Made by a program: the position numbers and the translations under genes. From NCBI RefSeq assembly GCF_014217855.1, contig NZ_CP059059.1:1736001-1800000 (forward strand): 64,000 bases of DNA, given 5' to 3'. Below, piece after piece: positions 2,123 to 8,193 of this stretch; position 1 is the first letter of the stretch; every line of letters begins with the position of its first letter. This DNA is from Synechococcus sp. HK01-R (GTDB taxonomy: Bacteria > Cyanobacteriota > Cyanobacteriia > PCC-6307 > Cyanobiaceae). The notes beneath the pieces are model-generated. The model saw nothing but the letters and a program-made list of their open reading frames with translations. It did no database searches and was not told where the DNA came from.

Positions 2123-3481
2123 TCAGATCAGCCGCGAACCGCTGGCCTGGCGTCGCTGATCCGGATCGAACACCGCAGCAATCGTGCGGATCAGCCAGCG
2201 GCCGTCGTTGGTGACCTGAACGCTGACCCCTCCCTCGTGGCGGTTGAGTCGCACCAGACCGTCCCGCTCCAAGGCCTCCAGGTCGCGGAGCTCGCTGTCA
2301 AAGCCGTGCTGGGGAACCTCAACCGTGAAGTGGCACATCACATCGCGGATCAGCTCCCGGCGGCGCAGCACATCCGGATCCTTCACGACCAGACCGCGCT
2401 CCACCGGGAGCGTCCCGTTCGCCAATGCGGTGGTGTAGGCCTTCAGGCCCCGTTCGTTCTGGCTGAACAGATGGCGGAACTGGCTGATCGCGCTCGGCCC
2501 GATCCCGAGCAGATCCAGCTCTCCACCGGTGGTGTAGCCCTGGAAGTTGCGATGCAGACGTCCTTGCCGAGCGGCCTCGGCCAGGCCATCGCTACTCAGG
2601 GCGTAGTGATCCATGCCGATTGCGTCGTAGCCGTTGGCGCAGAGAAGCTGATTGGCGTCCTCCAACATGCTCAGGCGTTGCCACTGGCTGGGGAGATCCT
2701 CCGCCTGAATCTTGCGCTGCATCGGCAACTGCTCGGGCAGGTAGGCAAAGGAAAACAGTGAAATCCGATCCGGACGCAGCTCCTGCACCAGGTTGAGGGT
2801 GCGCCTGAAGCGCTCCTGGGTCTGCAGGGGCAGACCACAGATCAGATCAACATTGACGCTTTCGAACCCCGCTTCCCGCAACCAGTGCATCGCATGACGC
2901 AACTGGGTCTCCGGCACCACCCGGTTGACGGCCCTCTGCACATCGGGATCGGCATCCTGGATACCGAAACTGATGCGGTTGAAGCCCAGCTCCCGTAGCT
3001 GGCAGGCGGCATCGCGGCTGAGACCTTCCGGGTTGACCTCAATCGAGGCCTCCAGCTCGTCGTCGAAATCGAAATAGCGACGGATCAGTTCCCAGAGCTG
3101 GGCCGTTTCCTCGCGATTCAGATAGTTCGGGGTGCCGCCGCCCCAATGCATCTGCGCCAGTCGTCGGCGTTGGGGCATGGCCTCGGCGATCAACTCCAGT
3201 TCCTTTGCCAACGCGGCGAGGTAGGGCTTCACCACCTTGGAACCGAGCTGGGTGGTGATCCGGTTGCAGCCGCAATACCAGCAGGCATGGCGACAGAAGG
3301 GCACATGCACATACAGCGACAGGGGCGCGTCGGTGACGTCCGCCAGCTGTTGCCGCAACTGGAGCTCGCCCACATCGTTGCGAAAGGAAGCGGCGGTGGG
3401 GTAGCTGGTGTAACGAGGCACAGGCCGATCGTGTTTGAGCAGCAACGCGAGGGCTCGGCTGGTCTGGGGCGTTGCTGTCAT
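2123..3481 (-). CDS. hemN: oxygen-independent coproporphyrinogen III oxidase
   Basis: This radical SAM enzyme of 452 residues converts coproporphyrinogen III to protoporphyrinogen IX without oxygen, in heme and chlorophyll synthesis. The cluster motif CX3CX2CXC is seen at C63, C67, C70 and C72, followed by HWGGGTPNYL near residue 111. The N-terminal VPRYTSYPTA is typical of true HemN and separates it from the HemW-type relatives. Length fits the family. It lies 70 bases downstream of the heme oxygenase gene on the same strand and is probably cotranscribed with it. The pairing hemN plus a second heme oxygenase plus an acsF cyclase is known from low-oxygen-induced clusters of other cyanobacteria, so this copy is likely used under micro-oxic conditions. 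Confidence 0.95.
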   Translation of the reverse strand: MTATPQTSRALALLLKHDRPVPRYTSYPTAASFRNDVGELQLRQQLADVTDAPLSLYVHVPFCRHACWYCGCNRITTQLGSKVVKPYLAALAKELELIAEAMPQRRRLAQMHWGGGTPNYLNREETAQLWELIRRYFDFDDELEASIEVNPEGLSRDAACQLRELGFNRISFGIQDADPDVQRAVNRVVPETQLRHAMHWLREAGFESVNVDLICGLPLQTQERFRRTLNLVQELRPDRISLFSFAYLPEQLPMQRKIQAEDLPSQWQRLSMLEDANQLLCANGYDAIGMDHYALSSDGLAEAARQGRLHRNFQGYTTGGELDLLGIGPSAISQFRHLFSQNERGLKAYTTALANGTLPVERGLVVKDPDVLRRRELIRDVMCHFTVEVPQHGFDSELRDLEALERDGLVRLNRHEGGVSVQVTNDGRWLIRTIAAVFDPDQRRQASGSRLI

Positions 3482-3551: not shown

Positions 3552-4232
3552 TCAGTCGAGCTGGGTCAGCTCCGCCAACAGGGCCTGGGTGGCGTCGAAG
3601 GCCTGCACCGCCTCATCCAGCAGTTCCTCCTCCTCGGCTGCGGAAAGTTCCATCTCTTCGAAGCCGTCGTGCAGCGCCAGCTTGAGCTCGGTGATTGGGG
3701 CGCTGAACGACCAGAAGCTGAGGGCGGGAAGAGCGGCTTTTTGCAGGATGGCGTTGGCCTGGGTTGCCAATTGCTGCCCGCCTGAGAGATCGCCGCCATA
3801 GCGCACATACACGTGGGCCATCAGCCGATGGGGGGCCTCACGGGCCAGCAGGTGCAGTTGCTCCATCCAGATCGCGGCCGCAGCCGATGCCGGCGTGGCG
3901 GGAACGCTGGCGAGAATGGCGAGGTCGTGACGCAGGGCGGTGGTGCGGGCGAGGTCGTTCCAGGGAATCGAATCAGATCCGAGCGAGTGGGCCAGGTCGG
4001 GGGCGTTCTGCTCAAGGAAGGCATAGGCCGGCGCCAGAGCCCGCATCAAGGCCGCCAGCTGGCGGGGGGAGGCGTCACCGGCGAGCAGGGCCCTGGAGAA
4101 GCTCATGCCTTCGGCCTTGTGATGGGCCTTGCCGATCCGGCTATGCAACTTGCGCACTCTGGGGCCAAAGCCGCGACGCATGTCGGCATCGGCGGGATTG
4201 GCGTGATCAGAGATCGAGTGGCTGGCGGTCAT
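3552..4232 (-). CDS. ho2: heme oxygenase, HO2-like
   Basis: The 226-residue product should open heme to biliverdin IX-alpha, the precursor of phycobilins, using ferredoxin. The proximal His is H38 within AHHKAEGMSF, and the distal-helix motif GDLSGGQ sits at about 147-153 after HVYVRY. I chose the ATG at 4232: the frame is open to 4316, but the extra 28 residues look unlike a heme oxygenase N terminus and would run through the palindrome at 4261-4278. The gene precedes hemN and is divergent from a small unknown gene. By analogy with the Synechocystis chlAII-ho2-hemN cluster this is probably the low-oxygen isoform; that is inference from context. Confidence 0.92.
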   Translation of the reverse strand: MTASHSISDHANPADADMRRGFGPRVRKLHSRIGKAHHKAEGMSFSRALLAGDASPRQLAALMRALAPAYAFLEQNAPDLAHSLGSDSIPWNDLARTTALRHDLAILASVPATPASAAAAIWMEQLHLLAREAPHRLMAHVYVRYGGDLSGGQQLATQANAILQKAALPALSFWSFSAPITELKLALHDGFEEMELSAAEEEELLDEAVQAFDATQALLAELTQLD

Positions 4233-4260: not shown

Positions 4261-4278
4261 TAATACGTTGCCGTTATG
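4261..4278. promoter_or_regulatory. imperfect palindrome, candidate operator in front of ho2-hemN
   Basis: The site reads TAATACG-TTGC-CGTTATG. Its reverse complement begins CATAACG, the same half-site found at 7139-7145 in front of acsF and the arsR gene, with the same 4-base spacer. The right arms plus flank of the two sites agree at 10 of 13 positions. It lies 29 bases upstream of the chosen ho2 start and could also act on the divergent small gene. The ArsR-family protein encoded at 7223 is the obvious candidate binder; that is inference. Confidence 0.5.
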
Positions 4279-4314
4279 ACGTGGTTCAATGGTTCTGGTT
4301 TGTTGTGTGTCTTC

Positions 4315-4653
4315 ATGGTTCTCGCCTCTCAGGGCTCCTCCTCAGGTCTGCAGGCGTTGATCGCCCGCGTCGGGCGTCTCAGTGGTGATGGTCAGTTGCG
4401 CGAACTGATCAAGGAACGCCACGCCCATTCCTCCCCCAGCGATGCCGGGATCTGGTACCTGCCCGAGGCCTGGTCCGAGGCGGTGTTCGGCGTGGCAGGT
4501 CGGGAGGCCGTGGTCGTGCAGGACCCGAGCGTCGCCACCTGGTTGGAGCTGCGCTTCGGCGTCACCCCCCAACCCCTGTCGCTCGAACCGGAGTGGCTCA
4601 ATCGCAATGCCAGCGGGCTGCCGCCGGCGGCAGCCCCTGTGGCCCTGGATTAA
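4315..4653 (+). CDS. hypothetical protein inside the tetrapyrrole island
   Basis: This frame of about 112 residues is divergent from ho2 and convergent with the ADO-like gene (20 bases between stops). I do not recognise it. The middle contains ELIKERHAHSSPSDAGIWYLPEAW and then a mixed, soluble-looking stretch, ending with a Pro/Ala-rich tail. An in-frame ATG at 4276 would add MTWFNGSGLLCVF, a weak signal-like stretch, but that codon lies inside the candidate operator at 4261-4278, so I prefer 4315. Neither start has a clear ribosome binding site. Its position suggests coregulation with ho2-hemN. It may be lineage-specific, and it could be missed or called with a different start elsewhere. Confidence 0.55.
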   Translation: MVLASQGSSSGLQALIARVGRLSGDGQLRELIKERHAHSSPSDAGIWYLPEAWSEAVFGVAGREAVVVQDPSVATWLELRFGVTPQPLSLEPEWLNRNASGLPPAAAPVALD

Positions 4654-4673: not shown

Positions 4674-5360
4674 TCAAGGGGCCATCCGGGCGGCCGCTCG
4701 CATCAGCAGTCGCCGCGCCTCCTTGCTCTCAAAACCCACCGCTTCCAACGACTCGCGGAACAGCTCGCTGAAGCTGGCGAGGGTCTCGACCGGATCCATG
4801 CCGATCTGCTGCAGGTCACTGGCGAGCGTCTGCAGGATGGCCAGGGTGAGCGGCAACGCCTCCACCACCACCGCGCTGACCCGGGCCTTCACCTGATCGA
4901 AATGGCGCTGCAGCCAGGTCTCGGCGTAGTCGAGGTGTTCCGATTCATCGTTCATCACCGCTGCGGTGATCGGCCGGGCGTAGGCATCGGCCACCGGCAG
5001 ATAGTGGCGGTAAGCCGCCACGGCGAAACATTCCACGATCAACCCCTGGATCACCAGGCATTCAGCCCGATTGCCGTCGTGGTCGTGACGTTTGAACAGA
5101 TCATGGAGAGGCTGAAACAGGCGGCGGGCCAGGGGGAGATCGGCCACCACGCCGAGGTTGCGGCCACAGCCCACAAAGGCGCTGGCATGGTCCCCCTCCA
5201 TCCGTCCGAGCCGCTGCAGCTCGTCGCGATCAGCGGGAATGCGCCGCGCCAACATCTGAAAATGGCGATTGGCGAGACCTTCGCCCACAATCACAACGCC
5301 GTTGATCCGGCTGTAGGCCTCGCGGTAGGCCGCACTGGCAAAGTCGAGCTGGGTCATCAC
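4674..5360 (-). CDS. aldehyde-deformylating-oxygenase-like ferritin-fold diiron protein
   Basis: The 228-residue product aligns by eye along its whole length with cyanobacterial ADO, the enzyme that makes alkanes from fatty aldehydes. YSRINGVVIVGE, GCGRNLGV, CLVIQGLIVECFAVAAY and LPVADAYARPIT are near copies of ADO blocks. All six diiron ligands are present: E27, E55, H58, E110, E139 and H142. Other stretches diverge, for example MEGDHASAF and the C-terminal third. It is the last gene of the acsF operon, and its start overlaps the glycosyltransferase stop. The usual partner, acyl-ACP reductase, is not in this window. A diverged paralogue with a role in low-oxygen or membrane physiology is plausible; a second alkane synthase cannot be excluded. 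Confidence 0.85.
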   Translation of the reverse strand: MMTQLDFASAAYREAYSRINGVVIVGEGLANRHFQMLARRIPADRDELQRLGRMEGDHASAFVGCGRNLGVVADLPLARRLFQPLHDLFKRHDHDGNRAECLVIQGLIVECFAVAAYRHYLPVADAYARPITAAVMNDESEHLDYAETWLQRHFDQVKARVSAVVVEALPLTLAILQTLASDLQQIGMDPVETLASFSELFRESLEAVGFESKEARRLLMRAAARMAP

Positions 5361-6058
5361 GAAGAAGCTTGAAGCGCTAATGGGTGGTTGAGGGCCTGGC
5401 GGGCCTGTGTCCAGAGCTCAGAGCGAGGCATGGTCTGGCAGTCGTCAAACCAGGGACCGCCCAGGGTGTAATGGAGGATGCGGGCGTCTTCGGGAACGTC
5501 CTGCACACCCACCAGCACATTCCATTGCGGCGGCAGTTCGCCGATCTCGCCGTCCTCGAGCCATTGGAACTGGTGCAGCTCCAGACCGCTGGCCGTGTTC
5601 ACCACCTGGGGGGTGAGTGCCTTGCAGCGACCACAGTTGAACAACATCACCGACGACCAGTTCTTGCGGCGATAGGGGGTCTGGGGCATGCCCTGGAATT
5701 TGGTGCCCGACTCGCAGTCGTGCTGATGCTTGACCACCTGCACCGCATAGCGGTCGTCGCGCAGGGCCCAGAGTTCAGCCAGATCACCGAGGCAGAGCAT
5801 GTCGGCATCGATGAAGAGGGCCCAACCCTCGTAGCCGCAGAGCCACGGCACCAGAAAGCGACTGAAGGAGAATTCCGTGCTCTGCAGTGGATTGTGCGGC
5901 CGGGTGTACACCGAGCGCAGCTGGGAGAGGCGGATCTGGGCGATCTGCACCGGCGCGCTGGCATGACGCTGCATCGAATCGGTGAGGACATTCACCGCCA
6001 CGTCTTCGCGCGGATCAAAACCAATGAAGACGCGGGGAAATGGATCGGTGGGTGTCAT
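5357..6058 (-). CDS. GT8-like glycosyltransferase family protein
   Basis: The 233-residue product starts with VFIGFDPREDVAVNVLTDSM and carries a DAD metal/nucleotide-sugar motif in FIDADMLCLGDL near residue 84. The closing block ILHYTLGGPWFDD is also typical of glycosyltransferase-like (nucleotide-diphospho-sugar transferase fold) proteins. No signal peptide or membrane helix is evident. Donor and acceptor are unknown. It is the middle gene of acsF-GT-ADO-like: its ATG overlaps the acsF stop, and its stop overlaps the next start, both as ATGA. Translation is therefore probably coupled and the three products are likely needed together. Why a sugar transferase belongs with a chlorophyll cyclase is not obvious. 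Confidence 0.75.
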   Translation of the reverse strand: MTPTDPFPRVFIGFDPREDVAVNVLTDSMQRHASAPVQIAQIRLSQLRSVYTRPHNPLQSTEFSFSRFLVPWLCGYEGWALFIDADMLCLGDLAELWALRDDRYAVQVVKHQHDCESGTKFQGMPQTPYRRKNWSSVMLFNCGRCKALTPQVVNTASGLELHQFQWLEDGEIGELPPQWNVLVGVQDVPEDARILHYTLGGPWFDDCQTMPRSELWTQARQALNHPLALQASS

Positions 6059-7098
6059 GCCGCCACCTCGTTGCTGGCCTGCATCGGCTGCAGAAACTGG
6101 CGCAGCAACAACTGACCAAAGCGCAGCCTCAGGCCGAGCCGAGTCCAGGCACCGGCCAGTCCTGGCTGATCCACCTTGCTGTTGTTCAGGCGCCGGAAGG
6201 TGTCGACCAGTTGATCCCGCAGGGCCAGGAACTGGGAGTTCTCCAGATCAAACACCCGGGGGAAGGCGCGCCGGGCTGTGCGATTGGTCTGGCGCATCAC
6301 CTCCGCATCGAAGCGGTCGGGATCCATGCCGAGCAAACGGTAGAAGTCACCGCGCTCACACACCGTGAGGCTGTGGGTCAGGAACACGCTCCACAGGAAG
6401 AAGCGGCTGAGCAGGGAGCCGCGCAGGCCGCTGTTGAGGCCGGGCCAACAACGGATCAGCATGTTGAAAATGTCGCCATGGCGGTTCTCGTCCTGACACC
6501 AGGGCTCGAAGAAATCAAACAACGGCGCGAAGGCATTCTCTGGATGGGCCTTGAGATGTCGGTCGATCAGGATGTAGCGCCAGTAGCCGATCTTCTCGGA
6601 GAGATACACCGAATAGAGCACCCAGTTGAGCGGGAACCAGGTGATCGGTCGCTTGGTGCTGAGGGCGGGCAGGTCGATTTCGATCCCTTCCGCCACCAGG
6701 GCCCGGTTCAGGAAACCGGCGTGGCGGGCCTCATCGCGGGCCATCAGGTTGAACAGACGACTGAGCTCCGGGCGCTTGGCGTCGCGCAGCTGGCGGGAGA
6801 GCTCCTTGAACAGGAGAAAGCCGGAGAATTCAGAGACGCAGGAGCGCACCAGATAGCTTTCATAAGCGCTTTTCTGCTCGGGATTGAGGTCGCGCAGGCG
6901 ATCCAGCGGGGCACGCCGATCGAAGTGATCACGGTTGTAGTCGGCCTCCATTTCACTGAGCATCGCCTCGAAGGAGGAGCGCTGCTCCTCGAGATTCGTG
7001 CGAGCGGCCTTGGCGATCTCCGTGGTGTAGAAGCGAGGTGTGAGCAGGTCTTCACGAAGATGGGGAGCCGTCGGTGCTCCGCTGGTGGTGGCTGTCAT
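6055..7098 (-). CDS. acsF: Mg-protoporphyrin IX monomethyl ester oxidative cyclase
   Basis: This diiron enzyme forms the fifth ring of chlorophyll, giving divinyl protochlorophyllide. The 347-residue product begins with the characteristic LREDLLTPRFYTTE block and has the diiron motif DEARH (in MARDEARHAGF) and the later DENRH (in CQDENRHGD). I chose the ATG at 7098 because it gives the usual short N terminus; an in-frame ATG at 7119 is also possible. It heads an operon with the glycosyltransferase and ADO-like genes and is divergent from an arsR-type gene. The link to heme oxygenase and hemN suggests it is the low-oxygen isozyme (chlA-II type), but whether another acsF exists in the genome cannot be seen here. 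Confidence 0.93.
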   Translation of the reverse strand: MTATTSGAPTAPHLREDLLTPRFYTTEIAKAARTNLEEQRSSFEAMLSEMEADYNRDHFDRRAPLDRLRDLNPEQKSAYESYLVRSCVSEFSGFLLFKELSRQLRDAKRPELSRLFNLMARDEARHAGFLNRALVAEGIEIDLPALSTKRPITWFPLNWVLYSVYLSEKIGYWRYILIDRHLKAHPENAFAPLFDFFEPWCQDENRHGDIFNMLIRCWPGLNSGLRGSLLSRFFLWSVFLTHSLTVCERGDFYRLLGMDPDRFDAEVMRQTNRTARRAFPRVFDLENSQFLALRDQLVDTFRRLNNSKVDQPGLAGAWTRLGLRLRFGQLLLRQFLQPMQASNEVAA

Positions 7099-7138
7099 GG
7101 TGTCGAGAGCGCAGGGCATGTCGCTTCGAGGACTATGC

Positions 7139-7156
7139 CATAACGAAAGCGTGATG
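7139..7156. promoter_or_regulatory. imperfect palindrome, candidate operator between acsF and arsR
   Basis: The site reads CATAACG-AAAG-CGTGATG, with arms matching at 6 of 7 positions. It lies 40 bases upstream of the acsF start and 66 bases upstream of the arsR-type gene, so one bound protein could control both. A related site with the same half CATAACG/CGTTATG and the same spacer lies in front of ho2 (4261-4278). ArsR proteins are known to bind short palindromes and often autoregulate, which fits. Confidence 0.5.
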
Positions 7157-7222: not shown

Positions 7223-7528
7223 ATGGAGCATCTCGCCGATTATTTCAAGGTCTTTTCCGAACCCAACCGTCTGGCGGTGTTGGAAGCCCTGCGCGATGGG
7301 CCGATCAATGTCACCGCTGTGGTGGAGAAAACCGGTCTGAGTCAGGCCCTGGTCTCCAAGCACCTCAAACTGCTCACGATCGCCGGTGTGGTGGAGCGCC
7401 GCCCTGAAGGATCGCTGGTGTTCTACGAAGTGATCGATCGCTCGGTGTTCCGCTTCGTGGCCCAGGCCGAGAAGCTGTTGCTCGCCTCCCGGCGTCAACA
7501 GCTCGATGCCCTCAGCGCCATCGTTTGA
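7223..7528 (+). CDS. ArsR-family winged-helix repressor without cysteines
   Basis: The 101-residue product is almost entirely one winged-helix DNA-binding domain: FSEPNRLAVLEALRDGPINV (start of the domain), the recognition helix TGLSQALVSKHLKLL, and the wing GVVERRPEGSLVFYEV. There is no cysteine at all, so neither the ELCVCDL metal site nor the dithiol switch of SqrR/BigR-type members is present; the inducing signal is unknown. It is divergent from acsF across 124 bases holding a candidate operator, and its stop TGA overlaps the next gene's ATG. Best guess: local regulator of the acsF and ho2-hemN operons, in the place occupied by the MarR-type ChlR in Synechocystis. That role is inferred from position. 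Confidence 0.85.
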   Translation: MEHLADYFKVFSEPNRLAVLEALRDGPINVTAVVEKTGLSQALVSKHLKLLTIAGVVERRPEGSLVFYEVIDRSVFRFVAQAEKLLLASRRQQLDALSAIV

Positions 7529-8193
7529 TGGCTGGTTTCAGCGCCCTGCCCACCACGGTCGAGGAGCTGCGGGATCAACTGAACTCCGGGCAGACCCGAT
7601 TTCCGGGATTGCGCCTCGGTGAGATTGATGGCGTCGATCTCGATCTGGCCGGATGTGATCTCCACGGTGGCTGCTTCAAGGAAGCCCGTTTCGGCCACGC
7701 CTGTCTGGCCGGCACCAACATCGAAGGCTGCTGCTTCCAGCAGTCGCTGATCTGGGGCGCCGACCTCTCCGGCGTGCTCGCCCAGGGCTCCTCCTGGCAT
7801 GACGCCGACCTCTCCGGCTCCCGCCTGCAGAAGGCCGATTTCAGTGGCGCCTTCCTGCACCGCTGCTGCCTGCGGGGCGTGGTGGCCGCCGGAAGCCTCT
7901 GGCGCGGCGCCCGTCTGGTGGAAGCGGATTTCCGCTCCGGGCTCGACCAGCTCACCGATCTCGGCGGCGCCGATTTCGCTGCCGCCGATCTCAGCTTTGC
8001 CCTGCTCCAGGGGGTCAACCTGCAGGGCGCCAATCTGCGAAACAGTTGCCTCTATGGCGCTGATCTCAGTGGGGCCGATCTGCGGGGTGCCGACCTGAGT
8101 GGCTGCGACCTGCGCGACACGCGCCTTTGCAACGCCGATCTGAGCGGAACGGTGCTGGATGGCGCTTTTCTGCCCGAAGAACGTGCTCTCTGA
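7528..8193 (+). CDS. pentapeptide-repeat protein
   Basis: The 221-residue product consists, after a short N-terminal segment, of A(D/N)LxG-type pentapeptide repeats, best seen in ADLSGADLRGADLSGCDLRD near the C terminus. Such repeats fold as a right-handed quadrilateral beta-helix. The repeats are irregular in the middle (GSSWHDADLSGSRLQ, GSLWRGARLVEADF). There is no signal peptide or membrane anchor, so it should be cytosolic. Several Cys residues point outward in repeat positions (GCDLHGGCF, GCCFQQS). Its ATG overlaps the stop of the ArsR-type gene, so the two form a coupled operon. Function is unknown; most cyanobacterial members have none assigned. Confidence 0.88.
   Translation: MAGFSALPTTVEELRDQLNSGQTRFPGLRLGEIDGVDLDLAGCDLHGGCFKEARFGHACLAGTNIEGCCFQQSLIWGADLSGVLAQGSSWHDADLSGSRLQKADFSGAFLHRCCLRGVVAAGSLWRGARLVEADFRSGLDQLTDLGGADFAAADLSFALLQGVNLQGANLRNSCLYGADLSGADLRGADLSGCDLRDTRLCNADLSGTVLDGAFLPEERAL

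Follow-up and report, generated by a model that had tools for sequence, protein, structure and literature searches.

Aldehyde-deformylating oxygenase (ADO) needs O2, and why cyanobacteria make alkanes is, to our knowledge, still an open question. If a dedicated ADO accompanies low-oxygen pigment genes, it would tie the metabolism of hydrocarbons or aldehydes in freshwater and coastal picocyanobacteria to hypoxia. Low oxygen induces chlAII-ho2-hemN, the closest described pigment gene cluster, which in Synechococcus 7002 also includes desF (PMC4500134). The desF product is probably a low-oxygen isoform of the O2-dependent DesC, and cells survive its loss except at low oxygen (PMC4500134). Coates 2014 (PMC3903477) lists second ADO homologues for PCC 7425, PCC 6307, PCC 7375, CB0101, and RS9917; these include some of the lineages treated here, and the passage that lists them gives no clade, context, or function. 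Genomes with two ADOs are already published, and one member of the group described below has already been crystallised.

Here, we describe a second ADO-like protein, ADO2, encoded in a stretch of 64,000 nucleotides of the Synechococcus sp. HK01-R genome (the window; contig NZ_CP059059.1, positions 1,736,001 to 1,800,000). We found no account of the ADO2 clade, its gene cluster, its loss of docking residues, or its sequence motif in the open-access literature, to which the search was confined.

ADO2 and Its Gene Cluster

ADO2 is encoded on the minus strand, a detail missing from the first-pass annotation. It starts at a GTG codon, with an ATG one codon later, and consists of a single Pfam domain without an output domain. 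PF11266 (Ald_deCOase) matches residues 6-220 at 210 bits (E 4e-62), above the gathering cut-off of 28 bits, which excludes a chance match. TIGR04059 gives 212.6 bits, under its equivalog cut-off of 222.65 bits, as against 407.7 bits for the canonical ADO of the same genome. The protein has three cysteines and is 42% identical to SeADO. The first-pass annotation had assigned six diiron ligands to it (E27, E55, H58, E110, E139, and H142); all are present at those residues and are invariant in the 41 ADO2 sequences aligned. The gene is under purifying selection, with a dN/dS of about 0.12, and this value together with the conserved ligands rules out a pseudogene.

The same annotation had placed the gene in an operon with acsF and a glycosyltransferase-like gene, and not beside the gene for acyl-ACP reductase (AAR), and both observations hold. 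The GT8-like gene shares 4 bases with ADO2 at one end and 4 with acsF2 at the other, so translational coupling of the three genes is likely. The aar gene is found at another place in the genome, next to the canonical ADO. The heme oxygenase (HO) and hemN genes lie on the strand of ADO2, downstream of acsF2-GT8-ADO2 (Table 1). The HO reading frame extends to 4316, but translation more probably begins with the ATG at 4232, since the second motif copy falls inside the extension. This HO is about equally distant from Synechocystis HO1 and HO2 in a search of the PDB, and its designation as a plain HO2 is unsupported. No match to the small ORF was found in Pfam or NCBIfam.

Table 1. Features of the ADO2 cluster, in window coordinates.
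Feature	Position	Strand	Basis
hemN, oxygen-independent coproporphyrinogen III oxidase	2123..3481	-	TIGR00538, 481 bits
Second, divergent heme oxygenase (HO)	3552..4232	-	PF01126, 91 bits
Weaker second copy of the putative operator, upstream of HO-hemN	4262..4277	-	2 mismatches
Small conserved ORF, 125 aa, opposite strand between ADO2 and HO	4276..4653	+	In 32/40 ADO2 loci
ADO2, second aldehyde-deformylating-oxygenase-like protein, 228 aa	4674..5360	-	PF11266, TIGR04059, identity to 5UX2, clade
GT8-like glycosyltransferase	5357..6058	-	PF01501, 30.8 bits (cut-off 24.3); adjoins ADO2 in 16/40 loci
acsF2, second Mg-protoporphyrin IX monomethyl ester oxidative cyclase	6055..7119	-	TIGR02029, 355 bits
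Putative operator ATAACGAAAGCGTGAT, between acsF2 and the ArsR-type gene	7140..7155	+	Motif search
ArsR/SmtB-type regulator without cysteine, divergent from acsF2	7223..7528	+	NF033788, 72.5 bits
Pentapeptide-repeat protein, conserved neighbour of the regulator	7525..8193	+	PF00805, 119.6 bits; synteny

The 2.48 Mb genome holds O2-using counterparts of these enzymes at other places. Another AcsF is 44% identical to acsF2, a more typical heme oxygenase scores 294 bits (about 91 to 92 for the cluster HO), and hemF is present. The canonical ADO lies at C1:1528396-1529049 (PF11266, 400 bits), with aar directly downstream (TIGR04058, 616 bits); this is the ado-aar pair for which the first-pass annotation had proposed a search, and it disposes of the idea that ADO2 is the single ADO of the genome in an unusual place. 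Because AcsF, HO, hemF, and the canonical ADO are all found elsewhere, the cluster offers an alternative for four O2-dependent steps. A second AcsF, a second HO, and HemN are clustered here apart from their O2-using counterparts, and HO, hemN, and the divergent ArsR-type gene, none of which the first-pass annotation of ADO2 names, define the locus as a low-oxygen type tetrapyrrole cluster. Within the cluster neighbourhood, no MarR-type ChlR was found; the divergent neighbour is of the ArsR/SmtB type.

Phylogeny and Distribution

In a tree of 86 sequences (41 ADO2, 43 canonical ADOs, and two orphan second copies), a branch with 100/100 support sets the 41 ADO2 apart from the 45 other cyanobacterial sequences; the bootstrap was not fully settled, and this branch was present in all resampled trees. 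ADO2 is accordingly a separate, deep clade. Given also the canonical ado-aar pair, ADO2 is a genuine paralogue linked to low-oxygen pigment genes, as had been proposed from the window alone, and the converse case set out at that time, that of an only ADO clustering with canonical enzymes, fails on both counts. The second ADOs of two other cyanobacterial loci (L139, 6051-6749, and L141), which lack an aar, sit across this branch from ADO2, with the canonical sequences, and are not ADO2. The L139 gene has different neighbours, by eye thioredoxin-reductase-like, methyltransferase-like, and rhodanese-like genes; in its product, E196 is likewise gone and Y39 is replaced by F.

An ADO2-type match occurs in about 53 of 300 Cyanobiaceae genomes, a count tallied by hand from the search table, at 53-96% identity, the window itself aside. 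Every ADO2 genome of this set has a second, canonical-type ADO match. Within the genus of the window, ADO2 was present in 3 of the 24 genomes drawn, its own included. A profile search of 386 genomes of the phylum found no ADO2 outside Cyanobiaceae; the scores fall into two groups, at least 347 bits (Cyanobiaceae only) and at most 270 bits, with a gap between them, and no wide spread across cyanobacteria was found. An alignment-based scan of genome contigs recovered 50 ADO2 loci, and a single-sequence scan recovered none. The named hosts are mostly Cyanobium, Vulcanococcus, and Synechococcus strains together with MAGs, one from Lake Pavin. Two MAG titles are apparently wrong: the picocyanobacterial low-oxygen cluster is filed once under 'Bifidobacterium breve' (L148) and once under 'Prochlorococcus marinus MIT 9215' (L147).

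The same neighbourhood was found at all 40 ADO2 loci fetched with their flanks, in the order hemN, HO, small ORF, ADO2, optional GT8, optional desaturase, acsF2, divergent regulator, and pentapeptide protein. Gaps in this order usually reflect a contig end or a position of HO-hemN outside the stretch read. The acsF2 gene lies just upstream in 38 of the 40, the remaining two running off their contigs. In 17 of the 40 (for example L035, L038, L041, L047, and L068), the acsF2-ADO2 operon also contains a fatty-acid desaturase (PF00487, 72 bits). In L037 and L044 (also L143 and L147), ADO2-GT8 is on the strand opposite to acsF2 and HO-hemN, which looks as though the two genes had moved together.

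The regulator, counted by hand in the same way, is present in 91 of the 300 Cyanobiaceae genomes: 50 of the 53 with ADO2 and 41 of the 247 without it. Among 20 regulator loci picked for lacking ADO2, 15 keep acsF2 and two carry a degraded or partial ADO2. The low-oxygen programme can thus do without ADO2, since 41 of 247 genomes that lack the gene retain the regulator, and acsF2 persists in most of those read. ADO2 appears degraded, partial, or split in L119, L121, L187, and L189, and the G209 copy (L007, L036, and L144) has a TAG within the matched stretch.

Active Site, Channel, and Docking Surface

Residues are given in SeADO numbering, which is offset from the window protein by 5 without gaps, and 41 ADO2 were compared with 43 canonical sequences. 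Y122 and D143 are kept in all 41 ADO2, and Q110 in 40, the remaining row being unread at this position. The second shell is changed throughout, with N38 replaced by H and Y39 by F in 41/41. Both residues are described as lying beside Q110 and the ligands; in SeADO, Y39F alone costs at most 20% of activity and R62A costs 91% (PMC5356278). R62 is kept in 34/41 ADO2 and is D in the group of the window. Along the channel and gate, F86 is L in all 41, the gate residue W178 (R in canonical ADOs of Cyanobiaceae) is L in 35, and F82 and I126 are also changed to L.

The surface that meets AAR is altered as well. Helix 7 residues E196 and E200 are needed for binding in the AAR-ADO complex, and E196A and E200A leave no detectable AAR binding (PMC7089970). 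Position 196 is E or D in 43/43 canonical ADOs and in none of the 41 ADO2; position 200 is E in 37/43 canonical ADOs, six of Cyanobiaceae having A there, and in none of the ADO2, which mostly have A or G. Position 201 (D201) is mostly E or S in ADO2. The window protein has V191, A195, and S196 in place of E196, E200, and D201, so the acidic docking residues are absent from it. With the acids at 196 and 200 lost, docking of ADO2 to AAR in the known way is unlikely. ADO works without docking to AAR, at about half the yield (PMC7089970).

Structural Evidence

An AlphaFold model of ADO2 (pLDDT 96.6) superimposes on SeADO (4RC5) with an rmsd of 0.8 A and a TM-score of 0.95, and on canonical ADOs at 0.6-1.6 A. 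The fit to PDB 5UX2 is 0.4 A. The 5UX2 sequence is identical to the ADO2 orthologue of locus L033 and 96% identical to the window protein; its title reads 'Protein 19 with aldehyde deformylating oxidase activity from Synechococcus', and we take Mak 2020 (cited in PMC9743570) to be the work behind it. The conversion of fatty aldehyde to alkane and formate by this orthologue is supported only by the depositor's title. The title may describe a side activity, since 6D9F, a remote ferritin-like protein in the same series, is likewise credited with 'ADO activity'; it is a sign of capability and not of role.

A Putative Operator and the ArsR-Type Regulator

The region between acsF2 and the divergent regulator carries a conserved motif. 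ATAACGNNNNCGTGAT occurs within one mismatch in 48 of 61 distinct acsF2-regulator intergenic regions and in none of 1220 mononucleotide shuffles, although 48/61 overstates independence, the motif having been derived from these same regions, which are related by descent. The motif is likely functional because it persists in regions that range from 103 to 1324 bases. If A is fixed at position nine, the genome has no exact match other than the window copy; one-mismatch sites elsewhere were taken as chance, the one that could be tied to a gene sitting inside an apparent petC. Upstream of HO, the motif is found within three mismatches in 47 of 57 regions, as against 37 of 1140 shuffles. Judged from these intergenic regions (L033-L192), ATAACGNNANCGTGAT before acsF2, with its diverged copy before HO, is probably an operator. 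The regulator is cysteine-free in 56 of 58 distinct sequences. Both units, acsF2-ADO2 and HO-hemN, would answer to this ArsR-type protein, in what is apparently a low-oxygen regulon distinct from that of ChlR.

Possible Roles of ADO2

With modest confidence, we regard ADO2 as an ADO isozyme for low oxygen whose substrates are free fatty aldehydes. A part in hydrocarbon or aldehyde chemistry under low oxygen agrees best with two observations: every other cluster enzyme of known role is an alternative to an O2-dependent housekeeping one, and the title of 5UX2 names ADO activity. As a spare copy of an O2-using enzyme, ADO2 follows the same rule as the desF cluster, which favours the isozyme. Under falling oxygen, the ArsR-type regulator, which has no cysteine, would act at the conserved motif and allow expression of acsF2-(desaturase)-(GT8)-ADO2 and of HO-hemN. 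The cluster enzymes would then back up or replace the housekeeping AcsF, DesC, HO1, and HemF, and ADO2 would do likewise for the canonical ADO (ADO1). Its chemistry would be of the same diiron type (fatty aldehyde + O2 + 4 electrons giving alkane or alkene + formate), with a second shell changed relative to ADO1. Lacking the usual AAR docking, it would take free aldehydes, including those that may escape from AAR while a shortage of O2 slows ADO1. We infer the low-oxygen induction of ADO2 from its neighbour genes, and likewise infer the pairing of regulator with motif and the free-aldehyde role; a higher O2 affinity of ADO2 than of ADO1 is assumed. The N38H and Y39F changes in all ADO2, and D at R62 in the lineage of the window, speak against this isozyme, as do the activity claimed for 6D9F and the genomes that have the regulator but no ADO2.

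The main rival keeps the chemistry and changes the substrate. ADO2 would act on a different physiological aldehyde, branched or pigment-derived (for example from phytol) or linked to GT8, and would not be an isozyme for alkane supply. The loss of the docking acids agrees with it, as do the channel and gate changes (F86L, F82L, I126L, and W178 or R to L), the GT8 neighbour, and the ADO2-GT8 unit of L037 and L044. Canonical ADOs, however, are already broad in substrate (PMC9743570), the cluster holds no candidate aldehyde-forming enzyme, and GT8 is missing from most ADO2 loci; we consider this reading rather unlikely. Independence from AAR docking and the low-oxygen type of the cluster would equally suit a protein that detoxifies or scavenges, clearing free aldehydes or consuming O2 with hydrocarbon as a by-product, as would AAR still supplying aldehyde when ADO1 is short of O2. 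As regards aldehydes this proposal overlaps with the isozyme, and a kcat below 1 per minute (PMC5356278) makes ADO a poor O2 scavenger; we regard it as improbable. A wider reading, which we offer tentatively as a possibility, is that ADO2 forms a diiron oxygenase family of its own, which diverged from alkane synthase, receives no substrate from AAR, and acts on another aldehyde or clears aldehydes only at low oxygen. It would belong to a picocyanobacterial low-oxygen programme under a cysteine-free ArsR-type regulator at ATAACGNNANCGTGAT.

Two further proposals fare worse. That ADO2 is an ordinary redundant ADO relocated to another operon would agree with the fold that it shares with 4RC5, but the deep clade, the sub-cut-off TIGR04059 score, the lost docking residues, and the strict conservation of the cluster leave it little credence. 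The first-pass annotation had also suggested an oxygen or redox sensor in place of an enzyme. A diiron site binds O2, and the gene is placed among those of low-oxygen type; yet the protein has no output domain, the cluster already has a DNA-binding regulator, the catalytic residues are conserved in 41 sequences, and 5UX2 is titled with an activity, so that a sensor is very improbable.

If ADO2 is the low-oxygen isozyme, the picocyanobacterial cluster suggests a kit of spare O2-using enzymes that extends into lipid metabolism (desaturase and ADO2) under a regulator other than the ChlR already described. The ADO2 that has been crystallised, which probably does not depend on docking to AAR, may also be of use for engineering.

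Comparison with Known Systems

ADO2 resembles the canonical ADOs (SeADO, 4RC5; PmADO, 2OC5) in fold, length, the six diiron ligands, Q110, Y122, and D143. It differs from them in its separate clade, in N38H, Y39F, and F86L, in the loss of the docking acids, in its position away from aar, and in its TIGR04059 score; 5UX2 belongs to the same clade as the window protein. The chlAII-ho2-hemN(-desF) cluster under ChlR in Synechocystis 6803 and Synechococcus 7002 likewise brings together a second AcsF, a second HO, and HemN, and the desaturase that joins the ADO2 operon in 17 of 40 loci recalls desF of Synechococcus 7002. A divergent regulator beside acsF2 is common to both clusters, but ChlR is a MarR-type Fe-S protein, whereas the regulator of the ADO2 cluster is of the ArsR type without cysteine. 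To the chlAII-ho2-hemN kind, the ADO2 cluster adds ADO2, GT8, and a distinct motif.
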